Shown here: one piece after another, positions 4,469 to 49,927 of the stretch
Position numbering within the stretch: position 1 is the first letter of the stretch
Layout: each line of letters opens with the position of its first letter
Assembly: GCF_000702885.1 (NCBI RefSeq)
Contig: NZ_JNKO01000002.1
Coordinates: 186,001 to 250,000 of the forward strand
Source of the DNA: Oribacterium sp. P6A1
Lineage (GTDB): Bacteria > Bacillota > Clostridia > Lachnospirales > Lachnospiraceae
Length of the DNA stretch: 64,000 bases
Direction: 5' to 3'
Translations under genes and position numbers: made by a program
Notes under the pieces: generated by a model
Databases searched by the model: none
What the model was told of the DNA's origin: nothing
The model's input: the letters and a program-made list of their open reading frames with translations, nothing else

Positions 4469-5284
4469 ATGAAACATTTAAAGAAACTTTTCAGGGACAT
4501 CATCGAAAGAAGGAGGATGATCTTCGATCTTGCGAAGTCGGATTTCAGAAAACGTTTTGTGGGATCATACTTCGGAATCATCTGGATGTTCGTTCAGCCA
4601 CTGGTTACCGTGGTTATCTATGCGTTTATTTTCGGTCCATACGGATTCAAGTCGGCGCCGCCTGTACCAAACACCAGCTATGTTATCTGGCTTATACCGG
4701 GACTGGTGCCCTGGTTCTTTTTCAGCGAAGCCATGAACACCATAACGGGCATACTTCATGAGTATAACTATCTCGTAAAAAAGGTGGTATTTCCTGTGGA
4801 ACTGCTGCCCATCATAAAACTTTCATCCTGCTTTTTCGTTCACCTTTGCTTCATACTTATCATGCTTATAGCATATATTGTTTCGGGAAAGATGCCGGAG
4901 GTGAGCTGGATACAGATTTTTTATTACAGTTTTGCGGCTTCTGTTCTTGCCCTCGGACTTGGATACTTCACCGGTGCGGTGAATGTTTTCTTTAAGGATA
5001 TGCAGCAGATCGTAGGGATAATGCTTCAGTTCGGCATATGGATGTGCCCCATCATGTACGATGAGACATTATTTACCGGAAAAGCTCCCTGGGTTGGAAC
5101 TGTCCTCAAGCTGAATCCTTTTTACTATATAGTTGCTGGATACAGGGACTCGATGCTCACAGGGGATCCTTTCTGGATGAGACCTATGCTCAGTGTTTAT
5201 TTCTGGGTATTTACACTTATGGTGTTTTTCCTTGGACTTGGATTTTTCAAGCGCCTCCGTCCTCATTTTTCGGACGTACTTTGA
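4469..5284 (+). CDS. ABC-2 type polysaccharide export permease (Wzm/TagG-like)
   Basis: A 271-residue permease with six predicted membrane spans. The N-terminal amphipathic stretch LAKSDFRKRFVGSYFGIIWM and the segment LNPFYYIVAGYRDSML are typical of the TagG/Wzm/RfbA family that exports O-antigen or wall teichoic acid in partnership with an ATPase. The usual partner (Wzt/TagH) does not follow; the next gene is plsC, 18 bases downstream. The ATPase must be elsewhere, possibly left of this window. The ribosome site before ATG 4469 is weak (AGGAGT and GAAGG lie further upstream). The family assignment is secure; the exported polymer is not known. Confidence 0.85.
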   Translation: MKHLKKLFRDIIERRRMIFDLAKSDFRKRFVGSYFGIIWMFVQPLVTVVIYAFIFGPYGFKSAPPVPNTSYVIWLIPGLVPWFFFSEAMNTITGILHEYNYLVKKVVFPVELLPIIKLSSCFFVHLCFILIMLIAYIVSGKMPEVSWIQIFYYSFAASVLALGLGYFTGAVNVFFKDMQQIVGIMLQFGIWMCPIMYDETLFTGKAPWVGTVLKLNPFYYIVAGYRDSMLTGDPFWMRPMLSVYFWVFTLMVFFLGLGFFKRLRPHFSDVL

Positions 5285-44374: not shown

Positions 44375-44404
44375 ATACACTACCTACAGAGACCGGACTA
44401 TCAT

Positions 44405-44471
44405 CCGAAGTATCTCTTGAGAAGTCCTGCAAATGCCTTGCCGTGTCTTGCCTCATCGCGAGCCATTTCAT
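44405..44471. repeat. Left attachment repeat of the integrated element (att)
   Basis: 67 bases match 49389-49455 with two mismatches; the inner 49 (44423-44471) are identical. The sequence is the 3' end of the rubrerythrin coding region, here as an orphan fragment. Confidence 0.9.
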
Positions 44472-44552: not shown

Positions 44553-44616
44553 CAACTAAATACAAGATTAACATAGAAAAAAGTGTCCCACAAGTGTCTT
44601 TTTGGAGGAAAAAAGC

Positions 44617-45825
44617 ATGTCGGAACATTTTAATCTTGGAGTTTATCAACTTGATAATGGGAATTGGGCTTGGAGATTTACAAAGACAGTTAATGATAAG
44701 CGTGTAAATCGTAAGGGAACAAAAGATATTGAAGGAAATCCTTTACGCAGCCAAAAGGCAGCTATTAGAGCAAGGGAACGCGCTATGCTAGACTTTGAGG
44801 CGCAATTAAACACAAAACCTAACATACGTATGACTTTGAGTGATGTATTTAAAGAATACAGCGAACATAGCATGAAAGGGAAAGCCTATTCTACCATTAG
44901 AAAGCAAAACAGCTTATGGAAAAATCATATTTGCGAAAAGTTCGGCTCACGCTTTGTTGACGATATTAGTGTTGGAGAAATTAACGATTATCTAGCAGAA
45001 CTTTACTATGTGGAAGGTCGCGCATACGGATATGTTGAAGGTTTTTTGAAAGTTTTCTATCTGCTCTTTGGTCAGGCGTATTCACACAATTATATCAATT
45101 CAGAAACATACAACAAATTATGTGTGAATAAAGATATCAGAATCACAATGCCTAAAATGAAGATTGATGAAGATACTGATATTGTGGCATTTAGTCCAGA
45201 AGAGATAAACCAACTTGACGAATATTTCAGCGGTACAAATGCGGAAACCGCGTATCTGTTAGGGCGCATGTGCGGTTTACGCATCAATGAAACTTACGGC
45301 ATCAAATGGCAAAATGTAGACTTAGATAAAGGTACGATTATTATTGATAGGCAAATGCAGTATCAAGACGGATTGATAAAGCTTGTATCACTAAAAACAA
45401 GAAATGCGCGACGCACTATTTATTTAAACGATAAAATAAAGCAGCATTTGCAGCAGGCATGGCAGCAGAGATTAGATGCCGAAAAAAATCAAAAGGATTT
45501 ACGCAAACAGAACCAAACTATCATTACCGATATTGACGGGGAATTGATTTCAAGTACAGAATTAGTCAACTGCCTGCCGAATGGAAAAATCCAGACCGTA
45601 AATTCTATGAAATTCCATTCCCGCACTTTAAAGGAAAAGGGAATCAATTTCAAATATCATTTTCTGAGACATACTTACGGAACACAGCTTGCAAACATGA
45701 ATACACCGACACACATTCTTTGTAACCAGATGGGACACGCAAGCGGCAAGGTAACAGAACGCTATTATCTTGCAGTATCTAAAGCAGGAATTGATATCCT
45801 CTTGAAAAATATCAACCACATGTAA
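44617..45825 (+). CDS. Tyrosine recombinase / integrase (Tn916-like)
   Basis: A 402-residue phage/ICE-type integrase. The N-terminal arm-binding domain starts LGVYQLDNGNWAWRFTK, as in Tn916-family integrases; a SAM-like core-binding domain follows (about residues 70-165). Catalytic residues are Arg in GRMCGLRINETYG, His-X-X-Arg-like LRHTYGTQLANM, His in QMGHASGKVTERYYL and the final nucleophilic Tyr there. TTGGAGGAAAAAAGC places a good site before ATG 44617. It adjoins the left att repeat and would catalyse site-specific entry at, and exit from, the rubrerythrin gene. It contains no internal TAG and ends in TAA. Confidence 0.95.
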   Translation: MSEHFNLGVYQLDNGNWAWRFTKTVNDKRVNRKGTKDIEGNPLRSQKAAIRARERAMLDFEAQLNTKPNIRMTLSDVFKEYSEHSMKGKAYSTIRKQNSLWKNHICEKFGSRFVDDISVGEINDYLAELYYVEGRAYGYVEGFLKVFYLLFGQAYSHNYINSETYNKLCVNKDIRITMPKMKIDEDTDIVAFSPEEINQLDEYFSGTNAETAYLLGRMCGLRINETYGIKWQNVDLDKGTIIIDRQMQYQDGLIKLVSLKTRNARRTIYLNDKIKQHLQQAWQQRLDAEKNQKDLRKQNQTIITDIDGELISSTELVNCLPNGKIQTVNSMKFHSRTLKEKGINFKYHFLRHTYGTQLANMNTPTHILCNQMGHASGKVTERYYLAVSKAGIDILLKNINHM

Positions 45826-45880: not shown

Positions 45881-45905
45881 AGAGCGGGACTCGTTTTCCC
45901 GCTCT
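45881..45905 (-). terminator. Terminator of the minus-strand element operon (bidirectional stem)
   Basis: AGAGCGGGA and TCCCGCTCT form a perfect 9-bp stem. On the minus strand ATTTTTT follows, closing the operon 45914-46952. It may also stop integrase transcripts. Confidence 0.8.
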
Positions 45906-45913
45906 TTAGTATT

Positions 45914-46102
45914 TCAAAAGTTAAAATCTCCTTCTGCTGCCATAATATCATCGATAGGATATTCTATTTGTAAATCATTCCACAGATAGTGATACATGTT
46001 ATCCAGAAGCACAAGCATCTTGCTGTATGCTGTTCTATCCTTATCCATAGTCATATTAGTCCAAACCTATGTAAGGCTTTCAATCATTTCGTTTTCTGTC
46101 AT
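45914..46102 (-). CDS. Small element protein, third gene of the TAG-containing operon
   Basis: A frame of 62 codons plus TGA, starting MTENEMIESLT and, after one in-frame TAG (codon 12, 46067-46069), continuing VWTNMTMDKDRTAY to YPIDDIMAAEGDFNF. AAAGGACACTTCAAA is a good ribosome site before ATG 46102, 16 bases after the stop of the preceding gene. A glutamine at the TAG gives SLTQVWTNM, a natural helix. There is no other defect. Either one nonsense mutation (CAG to TAG) or recoding explains it; in the standard code only the 46-residue stretch after an internal ATG would be made. No family recognised. Confidence 0.5.
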
Positions 46103-46118
46103 TTTGAAGTGTCCTTTC

Positions 46119-46628
46119 TTAGAATATGAATTTCTCAACAGCGGGAGAAGCTTGCTTCTCCTGCTGCTTATTTATATTATTATTTTTATTATTTATATTT
46201 ATTTCTCTGCTATCAGCCGTGCTTTTCTGTACATCATACGTTTTTGCGGCAACGCAAAAAGTATCATCTTCAAAGAACAAACCGTTATCCGTGTGCTATA
46301 CATCATCACGCGTCACGTTTTGAGGCCGTTCATGAAATTCATAATGATTATGTCCTTTATCTACCAGATATCCTTTATCTAAAAGCTTCAAAAATTGGTC
46401 TCGATAAGTTTGAGGTGGCATTCCCACAGCCTGCCGTATGGCAGCAGGAGAAAGTGCAAGCGCATAGCCATCAGCATTTGATGCAAAGTACATATAAAGC
46501 AATAAAGCATGTGCGCCTAAATCACGTGCCGCAGCCTACCAATTAGAATTTTTGATACCTAAGAAGTCAGAAGTGGCGCGTTCTCTGTGAACATAAACTG
46601 TTCTTTGATTTGCTACAGTTCGAGGCAT
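46119..46628 (-). CDS. Replication/HTH-type element protein with two in-frame TAGs
   Basis: A frame of 169 codons plus TAA. It begins MPRTVANQRTVYVHRERATS, carries TAG at codon 31 (46536-46538, in SNW-TAG-AAARDLG) and codon 111 (46296-46298, in RDDV-TAG-HTDNG), and ends KQASPAVEKFIF. The middle (ALSPAAIRQAVGMPPQTYRDQFLKLLDKGYLV) looks like a helix-turn-helix of plasmid/phage replication proteins. After the second TAG the frame stays open for 58 codons through an AT-rich Asn stretch where the other frames are full of TAA, then stops at TAA 16 bases before the next start. AAAGGAG precedes ATG 46628. It is either recoded or multiply mutated. The function is tentative. Confidence 0.55.
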
Positions 46629-46697
46629 TATAATATACTCCTTTATCTTTAATAAGGCAGCAGCACACAGAACGGCGGCCGCTGCCCATAGTTATTT

Positions 46698-46952
46698 TTA
46701 ATTTTTTCCTAGACGGTCAATTGCTTTATTCAATTCGTCAATTTGATTGACTATATCTGTAACGTCAACAGTACCGCTGATTCTATCAATAACTCTTGAC
46801 GCAATTTCTTCTATTAACTGTTCTCGTTCCTATTGGTCAAGTAACCTCTGATGTATCATTTCACGCTAAAATGCAAGTGTTAATGCAGCGTCACCGCTTT
46901 TTACAAGAGCATTCAGCACCGCTTGATAAAATCCATTTGACATTTTCGCCAT
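46698..46952 (-). CDS. Small coiled-coil element protein with two in-frame TAGs
   Basis: A frame of 84 codons plus TAA, beginning MAKMSNGFYQAVLNALVKSG. TAG occurs at codon 29 (46866-46868) and codon 41 (46830-46832), in LAF-TAG-REMIHQRLLDQ-TAG-EREQLIEEI. Glutamine at both sites gives a continuous amphipathic helix, and the C-terminal half (VTDIVNQIDELNKAIDRL) is a predicted coiled coil. AAAGGAGGAAAGACCA is a very strong ribosome site before ATG 46952, so the gene appears set up for efficient translation, which is odd for a dead gene. It is the first gene of the operon and is divergent from the 47405 gene. No family recognised. Confidence 0.5.
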
Positions 46953-47404
46953 TGGTCTTTCCTCCTTTCTTTATTTTTCTATATTTATAATACAAAATAT
47001 TTTTATAAAAATCGAATAAGGGCATTTTGTCGCAGCATCGCAAACATTCGTAGTACATGGGGGCGGTATAATGCGGGAAAAGCTTGGTTTTGTACTCCTA
47101 TCCAAGTTTTGCGTGACCAAGCGCGACACCATGAGTTATATTGCCACACCGTTACCCGTTGCATGTATATGCATGTCAATTTGATGCATTACGCGTGTTT
47201 TTGATGAAAAAACGTAGCAATTTACAGCAATCGCAATGAAATGCATGATTTTTGTGCAAAATCGCTAAAATCACACATATTATCATTGCTTTGCATGTGA
47301 TATTGACGATTTGTGCGTAAAAAAATATAATTATTATATCGATGTAACGCAACGCAATACAATGCGCTTGTTTTAATAGTTTTGCTTTTAGAAAGGAGCG
47401 AAAT
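46953..47404. other. Divergent control / origin-like region of the element
   Basis: 452 bases without a convincing gene between divergent operons. It contains repeated short words such as GCAAT, CGCAA and TGCAT (for example CAACGCAATACAATGCG at 47350-47366 and TTGCATGTATATGCATG at 47159-47175) and an AT-rich tail. This is what a plasmid-type origin or a bidirectional promoter with iterons looks like, but no known origin motif is certain. Confidence 0.35.
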
Positions 47405-47617
47405 ATGAGGATTATTTTAGACACCGATAAAAAAACAATCACTGTACCTTGGAATTATGCTGACAAACTTAAAGAACTTAACCGCATAATAAAGGATGGC
47501 GGCGGAACTAAGCAGTATGATTTCAAGTCCTACCTCAAAGAAACTTGGGATTTTTGCATGTCAAATACAGATGAGCATCTGAAGGTAGCAGATAAGCCTG
47601 TTCGGAATACAAAATAA
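47405..47617 (+). CDS. Small hypothetical element protein
   Basis: 70 residues starting MRIILDTDKKTITVPWNYADKL, soluble, without recognised motif. Proteins with this kind of start occur in phage and ICE modules of gut Firmicutes, but I cannot name a family. AGAAAGGAGCGAAAT is a strong ribosome site before ATG 47405. Its TAA overlaps the next ATG by one base (TAATG), so translation is coupled. Confidence 0.6.
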   Translation: MRIILDTDKKTITVPWNYADKLKELNRIIKDGGGTKQYDFKSYLKETWDFCMSNTDEHLKVADKPVRNTK

Positions 47618-47811
47618 TGGGCGCGCCGCGTGTAACGCCGCAAGAAATAGTTGAAATGCACCGCCTTTATTCAGAACTTGGCAATTATGCTGCTGTTGGA
47701 AGGAAGATGGGGCGAAGTGGTTCAACTGTCGCGCGGTACATCAAAATGAAAGGTACACCTAATATTGTAAAGCATACATTTTCCGAAATTGTTAGACGAG
47801 GGGGTAAATAA
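47617..47811 (+). CDS. Small helix-turn-helix protein
   Basis: 64 residues. TPQEIVEMHRLYSELGNYAAVGRKMGRSGSTVARYIK is a resolvase/Hin-type helix-turn-helix, suggesting a small DNA-binding regulator or accessory factor. It is coupled to both neighbours by TAATG overlaps. The C-terminus (IVKHTFSEIVRRGGK) is basic. It is a candidate repressor or excision factor for the element; its site is unknown, although the repeat-rich region just upstream of this three-gene run is an obvious place to look. Confidence 0.65.
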   Translation: MGAPRVTPQEIVEMHRLYSELGNYAAVGRKMGRSGSTVARYIKMKGTPNIVKHTFSEIVRRGGK

Positions 47812-48404
47812 TGGTTCATACGTTTGATGAAATCATTGGTCTATTGGGCCAAACAATGGGATATACTCCAGATTTCAATGAAAAGCTCGGAAAAACCCTT
47901 AGAGGACATATTGAATTAGCTGTTAATTACTTGGATAGTGATGAAGAGACTCTTGCGGTTGCAAATTGTCAACCTCTTCAAAGGAGGAACGCTCCAGATA
48001 TTATAGGATGCGTTGTTATCTTTACAACTAAACGGATTTTACTTTGCGGAGGCACGAGTACTTTAACAAACAGTTTATCTTGTACATCAATTCTAATTGA
48101 TAATGTATCTTCCATAAATCCCAGTAAAGGATTTTTACTAGGAAGCGTACAAATAGAAACAATCGGAAATGATGATATAAGAATGCTAAACTTGAAGAAA
48201 GAAGAAGTTGATAGAATTACAAAAAAATTCACGGATGCACTTAAAATTGCAAAAGAAAAAATAAAAGAAAATTCAGTAACAACAATTATACATAAAGAAG
48301 CTTCGGCGGCAGATGAAATCTTAAAGTTCAAGGGGCTGCTAGATGCTGGTATTATTACTCAAGAGGAATTTAACGCAAAAAAGAACCAATTGCTTGGGTT
48401 GTAA
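47811..48404 (+). CDS. PH-like / SHOCT domain protein
   Basis: 197 residues. The middle (IIGCVVIFTTKRILLCGG, then SILIDNVSSINPSKGFLLGSVQIE) matches the bacterial PH-like fold of YvbH type. The C-terminal 35 residues (AADEILKFKGLLDAGIITQEEFNAKKNQLLGL, split here only for reference) are a SHOCT domain, a short oligomerisation module. Such proteins are common in mobile elements but have no settled function. The start overlaps the previous stop by one base. A terminator at 48412 ends the three-gene run. Confidence 0.75.
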   Translation: MVHTFDEIIGLLGQTMGYTPDFNEKLGKTLRGHIELAVNYLDSDEETLAVANCQPLQRRNAPDIIGCVVIFTTKRILLCGGTSTLTNSLSCTSILIDNVSSINPSKGFLLGSVQIETIGNDDIRMLNLKKEEVDRITKKFTDALKIAKEKIKENSVTTIIHKEASAADEILKFKGLLDAGIITQEEFNAKKNQLLGL

Positions 48405-48608: not shown

Positions 48609-49217
48609 ATGGAAAGCCGCACATACTATTATGCAAGAGTATCAAGCAAAGACCAGAATCTTGACAGACAAATTGCAGCATTCACCGCTCTTGGAGCGTC
48701 AGAACGCGATATAATAGCCGATAAAGAAAGCGGCAAGGATTTAGACCGCGCAGGATATCAAGCCCTTAAAAATGCAATTCTAAGGCGTGGTGACACGTTA
48801 GTTGTGAAATCACTTGACAGACTTTCAAGAAACAAAACAGATATCCATAATGAGTTACAGTATTTCAAGGAAAACGGCATTCGAGTAAAGGTCATCGATT
48901 TACCAACAACAATGATGGATTTACCAGAAGGTCAAGAATGGGTTTTTGAGATGGTAAACAACATTTTGATAGAAGTGTTGGGAACTATCGCAGAACAGGA
49001 ACGCACAACGATAAAACAGCGACAGGCCGAAGGAATCGCAGCAGCAAAACAGAACGGCAAGCGTTTAGGGCGTCCCGCACTTGAATTTCCTAATAATTGG
49101 AATGAAGTTTATTCCTCTTGGAAGGCAGGTGAAATCACAGCTAAAAAAGCAATGGAACTAACCGACACAAAGCGCACTAGCTTTTATAAGTTGGTTCAAA
49201 TATCAGAGCAACAGTAA
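48609..49217 (+). CDS. Serine recombinase (resolvase/invertase family)
   Basis: A 202-residue small serine recombinase. The catalytic serine is in YYYARVSSKDQNLDRQ, with the conserved Arg pair in LDRLSRNKTD and the long E-helix region MVNNILIEVLGTIAEQERTTIKQRQ. The C-terminal helix-turn-helix (AGEITAKKAMELTDTKRTSFYKLV) binds DNA. GAGAGGAACGCGCCAC precedes ATG 48609. It would resolve dimers or invert a segment of the element; the palindrome cluster immediately upstream is its probable site. It has no internal TAG and ends in TAA. Confidence 0.92.
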   Translation: MESRTYYYARVSSKDQNLDRQIAAFTALGASERDIIADKESGKDLDRAGYQALKNAILRRGDTLVVKSLDRLSRNKTDIHNELQYFKENGIRVKVIDLPTTMMDLPEGQEWVFEMVNNILIEVLGTIAEQERTTIKQRQAEGIAAAKQNGKRLGRPALEFPNNWNEVYSSWKAGEITAKKAMELTDTKRTSFYKLVQISEQQ

Positions 49218-49384
49218 CAGTAAATTTAGGACACTTTTTTCAAGGACACATTTTTCTATCCTAATGGAACGGGAGCAGGCAGCAGGACACCGCAAAAGAC
49301 ACATGTGCGGCAGCAGGACATAAAAATAGAGGGAATGGATTTCTCCCTTCCCTCTTGGAAATGCTTGATTTACAAGGCTTTATA

Positions 49385-49927
49385 TTAGCCGAAGTATCTC
49401 TTCAGGAGTCCTGCAAATGCCTTGCCGTGTCTTGCCTCATCGCGAGCCATTTCATGAACGGTATCATGAATAGCATCGAGGTTTAACTTCTTGGCTCTCG
49501 TAGCAAGATCAACCTTACCTGCTGTAGCTCCATTTTCGGCCTTAACGCGAACTGTCAGATTCTCCTTGGTTGATGCGGAAACGCACTCACCGAGAAGCTC
49601 TGCGAACTTTGCTGCATGCTCAGCCTCTTCAAATGCAGCTGTCTTGTAGTACTCGCCCACCTCAGGGTATCCCTCGCGGAAAGCAGCTCTTGACATGGCA
49701 AGATACATACCGACTTCTGTGCACTCAGCTTCAAAGTTTGAACGAAGATCTGCCTTGATATCTTCAGGAGCGTCAGCAGCAACACCGATAACGTGCTCTG
49801 CAGCCCATGTCATCTCACCTGACTGCTCAACGAACTTTGATGCAGGCGCCTTACAAAGAGGACATGCCTCCGGTGGTGTGTCACCCTCATGAACGTATCC
49901 GCATACTGAACAAACCCATGTCTTCAT
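49385..49927 (-). CDS. Reverse rubrerythrin (rubredoxin domain first)
   Basis: 180 residues. The N-terminal rubredoxin domain has Cys6-X2-Cys9 and Cys22-X2-Cys25 ([10 protein letters not shown] and CPLC). The C-terminal diiron four-helix bundle has [24 protein letters not shown] and [13 protein letters not shown] as iron ligands. The order is the reverse of classical rubrerythrin; such proteins act as NADH-linked peroxidases in clostridia. The last 67 bases are the attachment repeat, so the element integrated into this gene while preserving its C-terminus. AAAGGAGATTTCTAGT precedes ATG 49927. It lies 49 bases after the PerR-like gene. Confidence 0.93.
49389..49455. repeat. Right attachment repeat of the integrated element (att)
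   Basis: Matches 44405-44471 (65 of 67 identical) and forms the real 3' end of the rubrerythrin gene. Confidence 0.9.

Follow-up and report, generated by a model that had tools for sequence, protein, structure and literature searches.

In-frame TAG codons, apparently standing for glutamine, in the putative replication operon of a family of small integrative elements

The stretch of DNA analysed here (the window, 64,000 nucleotides of Oribacterium sp. P6A1) harbours a 5.0 kb integrative element that is bounded by a 73-bp direct repeat whose two copies start 4,984 bp apart (Table 1). Convergent to its tyrosine integrase gene lies a minus-strand operon of three frames with five in-frame stops. 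According to a first-pass annotation, all five are TAG and none is TAA or TGA, no frameshift is involved, each gene has its own ribosome site and ends in TAA or TGA, a terminator follows the operon, the middle gene stays open for 58 codons beyond its second TAG, and the integrase, resolvase and other genes of the element are free of TAG. Re-reading of the frames upheld all of this. The stops are TAG in five of five cases (last bases 46866, 46830, 46536, 46296 and 46067; codons 29 and 41 of gene 1, 31 and 111 of gene 2, and 12 of gene 3), a Shine-Dalgarno-like stretch precedes each of the three genes, and the hairpin downstream of the operon runs from 45905 to 45881. The frames continue through every TAG, which rules out a frameshift as the cause of their interruption. 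Terminator-like sites in the region number four against 1.4 expected. A standard-code list of open reading frames shows gene 2 as a 68-aa fragment, and a restart frame beginning with TTG (46502-46296) lies downstream of its first TAG.

Table 1. Features of the window element and, in the last row, of two related viral contigs (positions on those contigs)
Feature	Position	Strand	Description
Left attachment repeat	44399-44471		73 bp, 95% identical to right copy; copies rubrerythrin gene 3' end
Tyrosine integrase	44602-45825	plus	PF00589 (6.2e-18); no internal TAG; ends in TAA
Operon terminator	45881-45905	minus	terminator-like hairpin of 9 pairs with T run; consensus match
Gene 3	46102-45914	minus	62 aa; one in-frame TAG (46069-46067); ends in TGA
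Gene 2	46628-46119	minus	169 aa; two in-frame TAGs (46538-46536, 46298-46296); ends in TAA
Gene 1	46952-46698	minus	84 aa; two in-frame TAGs (46868-46866, 46832-46830); ends in TAA
Operon leader	46953-47010	minus	AT-rich promoter-like stretch, strong Shine-Dalgarno
70-aa protein	47405-47617	plus	no internal TAG
64-aa HTH_38-like protein	47617-47811	plus	5.8e-5, below Pfam cut-off; no internal TAG
Bacterial PH and SHOCT domain protein	47811-48404	plus	Pfam; no internal TAG
Serine resolvase	48609-49217	plus	PF00239 (1.6e-30); no internal TAG
Right attachment repeat	49383-49455		rubrerythrin gene 3' end
TAG-coded phage genes	L174 1531-2535; L170 1526-2533		replication initiator and GIY-YIG gene beside TAG-free terminase and other genes

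The window element adjoins the 3' end of a gene (49385-49927, minus strand) that we take, from its sequence, to be rubrerythrin, and the element of a Butyricicoccus MAG (L052) likewise adjoins the 3' end of a rubrerythrin gene (4683-5222). This gene end is likely the preferred integration site of both. L052 repeats the order of integrase, operon, small divergent genes and resolvase with the rubrerythrin gene adjacent; no matching pair of attachment repeats was seen on its contig. Its operon consists of the same three genes in identical order, and the homology of gene 2 to proteins of other genomes extends to both sides of each of its TAGs; on both grounds, the operon with its TAGs is more than a product of chance.

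The product of gene 2 matches PHROG_270 (replication initiation, 2.6e-6), and among its relatives there are matches to DnaD-like helicase loaders as well. In the predicted structure, the core (residues 31-100, with a block pLDDT of 86-92) resembles a winged helix, the nearest fold being the Geobacillus primosome protein DnaB (a weak match, E 0.014). We therefore take gene 2 to encode a winged-helix protein similar to replication initiators and helicase loaders, and the operon is most likely a replication module. Gene 2 found no match among phage and plasmid records. In four elements, the third operon gene encodes a GIY-YIG endonuclease-like protein with two or three TAGs; these proteins had no match among phage records, and PADLOC returned only a weak PDC-S14 match for the one of L139. 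Homologues of gene 3 occur in L052, with a TAG of its own at codon 24, and in L105, where the gene is TAG-free. Among the eight genes of the window element, no Pfam or PHROG match to packaging or helper-interference genes was found, and PADLOC gave no match for the six of them submitted. Rfam yielded five matches on the window element, all far under the gathering scores, and on six loci only tmRNA and tRNA-Ala, both in L173. The sigma-70 match of the window leader is weaker than in the relatives examined: a TATAAT box with 17-nt spacing is found in the operon leaders of nine of ten elements, the window with its weaker match being the exception, and promoter scores taken singly are no better than those of shuffles.

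Homology searches added 16 relatives of gene 2, giving a family of 17 elements (the window, L052, L105-L112, L120, L139-L143 and L173). Searches with gene 2 or its alignments covered 195 relatives (one match, the window itself), 392 genomes (seven matches, strong for the window and G651), 216 genomes (15 matches, eight with E < 1e-16) and 395 genomes overlapping the 216 (nine matches at E <= 1e-8, one of them new), while sets of 87, 394 and 48 genomes gave one, nine and one match, respectively. Weak matches outside the 17 elements came from G669, G694, G138, G714 and G709 among the 392 genomes, with three TAA inside the 20-bit match of G709, and from G437, G552, G942, G367, G617, G1086 and G1099 among the 216.

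In total, 32 in-frame TAGs are spread over the operons of 11 of the 17 elements: five each in the window and L140, four each in L139 and L141, three each in L107, L108 and L112, two in L142, and one each in L052, L120 and L173. Since the other six are TAG-free in the genes examined (three genes of L105, two of L106, gene 2 only of L109, L110, L111 and L143), TAG is not needed for persistence of the element. Counted over 33 operon genes of 16 elements, 30 in-frame TAGs stand beside 136 CAA and 69 CAG codons; the total of 32 includes one more TAG in gene 1 of L141 and one in gene 2 of L173, and leaves out gene 1 of L173, which has no clear start. CAA is thus about twice as frequent as CAG, yet no TAA or TGA cuts the conserved regions. 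Each of these 33 frames was extended until a TAA or TGA was reached; a TAG end could therefore not show, and the absence of internal TAA and TGA rests on frame lengths like those of homologues. All 33 can be closed by TAA or TGA at such lengths except the short gene 2 of L108 and L142, where the usual tail is missing. The last TAG of gene 2 in L108 (codon 110, three codons ahead of TAA) may be a true stop; for L142, the HMM match reported two TAA, i.e., the frame end and one just past it. A poorly resolved gene 2 tree of 15 of the 17 elements (one of 12 inner branches starred) would require at least three changes between TAG and non-TAG states. Upstream of the operon, L107-L112, L120 and L142 encode one or two small proteins of 119-158 aa (with starts such as MTNITVNYKKNTIEITKSF), which look by eye like one family and are not present in the window element.

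The use of TAG differs between the operon and the remainder of the element. In 38 non-operon genes, there is no internal TAG against 232 Gln codons; because reading ended at whichever stop codon came first, this claim depends on their homologue-like lengths, and the listed integrase of L126 was not found and is absent from the 38. A Fisher test on TAG against other Gln codons (31/205 in the operons, 0/232 in the other genes) gives 3e-10, one of the 31 TAGs being that in gene 1 of L141, whose other Gln codons lie outside the 205. The non-operon genes end in TAA or TGA in 35 cases and in TAG in three (the integrase of L107 and a small protein in L108 and L142), with C-termini that resemble those of homologues; L107 ends its integrase at TAG while the TAGs of its operon are sense codons. 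Among the genes counted, TAG is confined to the replication operon. This confinement is softened by one minus-strand frame outside the operon of L120 (3585-4052, 155 aa), which has two in-frame TAGs and no convincing Pfam match. The element had previously been likened to phages that keep their early genes readable in both codes; that likeness does not hold, since the TAGs of this element lie in its replication genes.

Replication genes with TAG also occur outside the element family. The IMG/VR contigs L169/L174 and L170 have one TAG each in a replication-initiator gene, and four (L169/L174) and five (L170) in a GIY-YIG gene. The terminase and seven other long genes of L174 have no TAG against 100 Gln codons, this terminase is 40% identical to those of staphylococcal phages, and the 11-kb contig bears no tRNA. 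For recoded phages a late-gene pattern has been suggested; L174 and L170, whose TAGs lie in replication genes, show the opposite. Scans of IMG/VR with gene 2 and the integrase retrieved no copy of the element; the sole gene 2 relative is L119, a TAG-free, 40% identical gene on a viral contig, and the window integrase had one relative at 26%.

To guard against circularity, homologues were aligned with every TAG masked as X. Gln then makes up 91 of the 266 homologous residues at TAG columns, a 7.4-fold excess over background, the next residue being Met at 1.95; over unique TAG columns the values are 5.4-fold for Gln and 2.2 for Met. The masked set comprises 35 genes, 38 TAGs and 23 columns. It was enlarged by two GIY-YIG genes from phages and one viral GIY-YIG gene that is TAG-free, whereas gene 2 of L112 and L143 was omitted as too divergent. 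No homologue has Gln at 12 of the 23 columns, e.g., codon 111 of window gene 2, and the enrichment comes mainly from six columns in which Gln accounts for a third or more. With TAG aligned as Gln, the residue that homologues show at TAG sites is Gln in 40 of 88 cases for gene 2, 6 of 14 for GIY-YIG and 13 of 50 for gene 1, compared with background Gln of 4.7, 2.5 and 5.6% and with 39, 20.5 and 12.7% at CAA/CAG sites, respectively. The latter alignments contain 13 of 17 gene 2 sequences (without L111, L112, L143 and L173), all four element GIY-YIG genes and nine of the ten gene 1 sequences with a clear start. Single sites tell the same story. Gln 8 of gene 2, invariant elsewhere, is replaced by TAG in two elements from different host families (codon 8 in L120, codon 11 in L173), Gln 78 is TAG in L108 and L142, and the window and L140 have TAG at a common column, 31. 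In the GIY-YIG gene, L139 and L107 have TAG-KEG where L140 has Q-KEG, and in the reverse swap NTQIP of L139 and L107 corresponds to NT-TAG-IP of L140 and L141. A site that does not fit this pattern is one column at which all four element GIY-YIG genes have TAG and the viral relatives G or F. As Gln alone is strongly enriched, pyrrolysine or another residue at TAG is ruled out.

We estimated dN/dS according to Nei-Gojobori, with TAG read as Gln. For L108/L142, gene 1 gives 0.20 (0.12 past the first TAG) and gene 2 gives 0.23 (0.53 on the 31 codons past TAG). For the phage pair L174/L170, the GIY-YIG gene gives 0.15, both overall and past the first TAG, and the initiator 0.28 (0.30 past the first TAG). 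Three of the four close pairs thus lie between 0.12 and 0.30 past the first TAG, the fourth at 0.53; both copies hold the TAG in the gene 1 pair of L108/L142 and the GIY-YIG pair of L174/L170. The window compared to the TAG-free L105 yields 0.17 for gene 2 and 0.44 for gene 3, while several wider pairs are saturated in dS and hence uninformative. By these values, purifying selection mostly persists across TAG. Some element copies may nevertheless be decaying, given the lost tail of gene 2 in L108 and L142 with its value of 0.53, codon 110 of L108 and the start of gene 1 in L173.

Taken together, TAG as glutamine in the operon family is well supported by these comparisons. The first-pass annotation had proposed this reading, with an alignment of homologues at the TAG sites as a check, and it is borne out by the enrichment of Gln, the reciprocal swaps and the low dN/dS past TAG. 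The same annotation held that homologues with plain CAG at all five window sites, together with the lack of a suppressor, would speak for decay. The close sister L105 corresponds to this in part: it is TAG-free in three genes, but Gln occupies only a part of the five sites in it, and it does not favour decay because other members have independent TAGs at Gln sites.

A search of the whole genome for a tRNA with CUA anticodon, likewise suggested earlier, found none in the window's genome when ARAGORN was run on the regions of 60 tRNA-model matches (from 150 scored of 183 candidates); two degenerate matches that ARAGORN did not call were read by eye. A degenerate tRNA-like sequence lies between tRNA-Gln and tRNA-Asn on contig C48 of G000 (1061-1118; about 361-418 of L043); ARAGORN does not call it, and its loop, read by eye, has no CTA. 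In the Butyricicoccus MAG, none of 46 matches is a CUA tRNA, one that is cut by a contig end reading as tRNA-Tyr. Run over the host genomes of 12 of the 17 elements, among them 10 of the 11 that have TAG, a class-I CUA pattern detected no CUA tRNA; it picked up one tRNA-Arg(TCT) per genome, which served as an unplanned positive control, and four further sites at which there is no tRNA. A stricter pattern had no match in 246 genomes of one host family. The 64-kb window contains no tRNA and the 16 other element loci no CUA tRNA, so that no suppressor of the elements' own was seen; such a tRNA is not obligatory for a code 15 element. All these searches were made on draft assemblies, from which a tRNA contig may be missing, with patterns that do not include tRNAs with a long variable arm, and for the host of L173 on a 7.2-kb contig only. 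Overall, no decoder or helper phage was identified in the genomes and loci examined. In IMG/VR, a sub-pattern of the stricter pattern matched at least 120 stretches, and among the matches listed, 66 of 80 loci have an ARAGORN-called CUA tRNA, which indicates that such tRNAs are plentiful in viruses.

In this study, we propose that the replication operon of the 5-kb element uses TAG as Gln and becomes readable once an external UAG-suppressor tRNA(Gln) enters the cell, most plausibly by way of a code 15 phage, an explanation to which we give an even chance. The other genes of the element, like those of the host, employ TAG only as a stop, where they employ it at all. In the integrated state, the operon would not be fully translatable, since no UAG-reading tRNA was seen in the host. 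The most plausible source of a suppressor tRNA(Gln) is infection by a phage in which TAG is recoded (code 15); with such a tRNA present the operon would become readable, the initiator and its partners would be made, and the element would excise and replicate alongside that phage. Transcription would start from an ordinary promoter and the gating would be translational, by the code. We infer the external decoder, its origin from a phage and the ensuing replication. As a recoded phage is the obvious carrier of a UAG-reading tRNA(Gln), we regard the element above all as a candidate satellite of such phages. Somewhat short of an even chance is the broader view that the elements of Butyricicoccus and other hosts form a family of code-locked satellites, for which a foreign code would be the induction signal and the code switch of the phage the trigger that its parasite senses.

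Other explanations have to be weighed against this one. The operon may have originated, or taken its present form, in cells or phages with a UAG suppressor (on a plasmid, virulent phage or prophage that these assemblies lack), leaving the element stranded and silent in its present host. The lack of a decoder in the genomes examined and the damaged-looking copies (gene 2 tail of L108 and L142, gene 1 of L173) would agree with such a history, which we hold to be unlikely: readable TAG frames are kept in 11 of 17 elements from at least four host families and the testable close pairs are under purifying selection, both of which argue that the TAG state has been long maintained. We are slightly less inclined still to a role of the host itself, in which near-cognate reading by tRNA-Gln(CUG/UUG) would supply a trickle of initiator, as a built-in copy-number brake that needs no helper. 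Near-cognate Gln tRNAs at UAG are expected to insert Gln, the window's host has two adjacent tRNA-Gln(CTG) genes, and few ORFs of the window end in TAG (2 of the 46 with at least 200 aa, some of which may not be genes). Against this, there are up to three TAGs per element gene (GIY-YIG of L139 and L141, gene 2 of L112) and five in the GIY-YIG gene of phage L170, and because readthrough multiplies over several TAGs the yield would be near zero; nor do the TAGs, by eye, have a single common context. A dead operon with ordinary CAG-to-TAG decay, the alternative named in the first-pass annotation and suggested by the TAG-free sister operon of L105, is very improbable, and for the family rejected, in view of 32 TAGs in 11 of 17 elements, TAG sites common to diverged elements, Gln enrichment, swaps between TAG and Gln, and pseudogene marks that are missing (no mixed stop types in conserved regions, where TAA and TGA are absent though CAA exceeds CAG; dN/dS well under 1 in most comparisons). 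Equally improbable, and likewise rejected, are true stops with functional short or restarted products, for which the TTG restart frame of gene 2 and a few TAGs near gene ends (e.g., codon 110 in L108) could be cited, as TAG appears in gene 2 as early as codon 8 in L120 and codon 11 in L173, lies, in all four element genes, within the conserved GIY-YIG region, and alternates with Gln codons at the same sites.

The proposal of an externally decoded satellite has parallels in several known systems. Borges 2022 is reportedly the original paper for the regulation of late, lytic genes by recoding. Code 15 phages, in which TAG is Gln, are known (PMC9523058; PMC11210395; PMC10879173), about half of them (375 of 715) having their own Sup-CTA tRNA (PMC11210395), and recoding has been suggested to regulate late, lytic genes (PMC11210395; for TGA, PMC10746230). 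As in crAss-like and other gut phages with this code, TAG here stands for Gln side by side with CAA and CAG, the code of the host is the standard one and the usage is limited to certain genes; unlike those phages, the present case is a 5-kb integrative element with TAG in replication genes and no suppressor found. With phage satellites such as PICI and P4-like elements, the element shares its small size, integrated state, tyrosine integrase and replication initiator and the absence of structural genes. Unlike them, it has no recognised packaging-interference or capsid-remodelling gene and no known helper. Its integrase is about 25% identical to those of Streptococcus satellite phages, phage integrases being equally distant. 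A change of genetic code is not known as a trigger that induces phage satellites. A further class consists of small integrative elements whose initiator is DnaD-like or RepA-like. Our element has the combination of integrase, winged-helix initiator and resolvase in common with them, but its operon is readable only with TAG as Gln. In open-licence papers, we found no report of TAG-coded satellites or of integrative elements split between codes.

Stop-codon recoding has been described for phages, many of which bring their own decoder, whereas the genes of this small chromosomal element are divided between two codes and no decoder was detected. The code can therefore serve as a switch in its own right. 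It becomes possible to test, on the side of the parasite, why phages recode, and the proposal predicts phage-satellite pairs that are matched by code. In pig-gut prophages, recoding was tested by whole-genome coding density (PMC12454387). A test of this kind would hardly notice one operon, and standard-code annotation hides such operons.

A further feature of the operon leaders is an inverted repeat with perfect arms of 6-8 nt, located 6-8 nt past the TATAAT box in nine of the 11 leaders compared (L052, L105, L106, L107, L120, L139, L140, L141 and L142) and absent from those of the window and L108. In mononucleotide shuffles, such a repeat occurred in a mean of 0.96 of 11 leaders, with a maximum of five in 2000. 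The arms show compensatory changes (GAAAGT/ACTTTC, TAAGGTAA/TTACCTTA, CAAGGTT/AACCTTG and GAAAATC/GATTTTC), and the repeat is a candidate operator or 5' mRNA hairpin.
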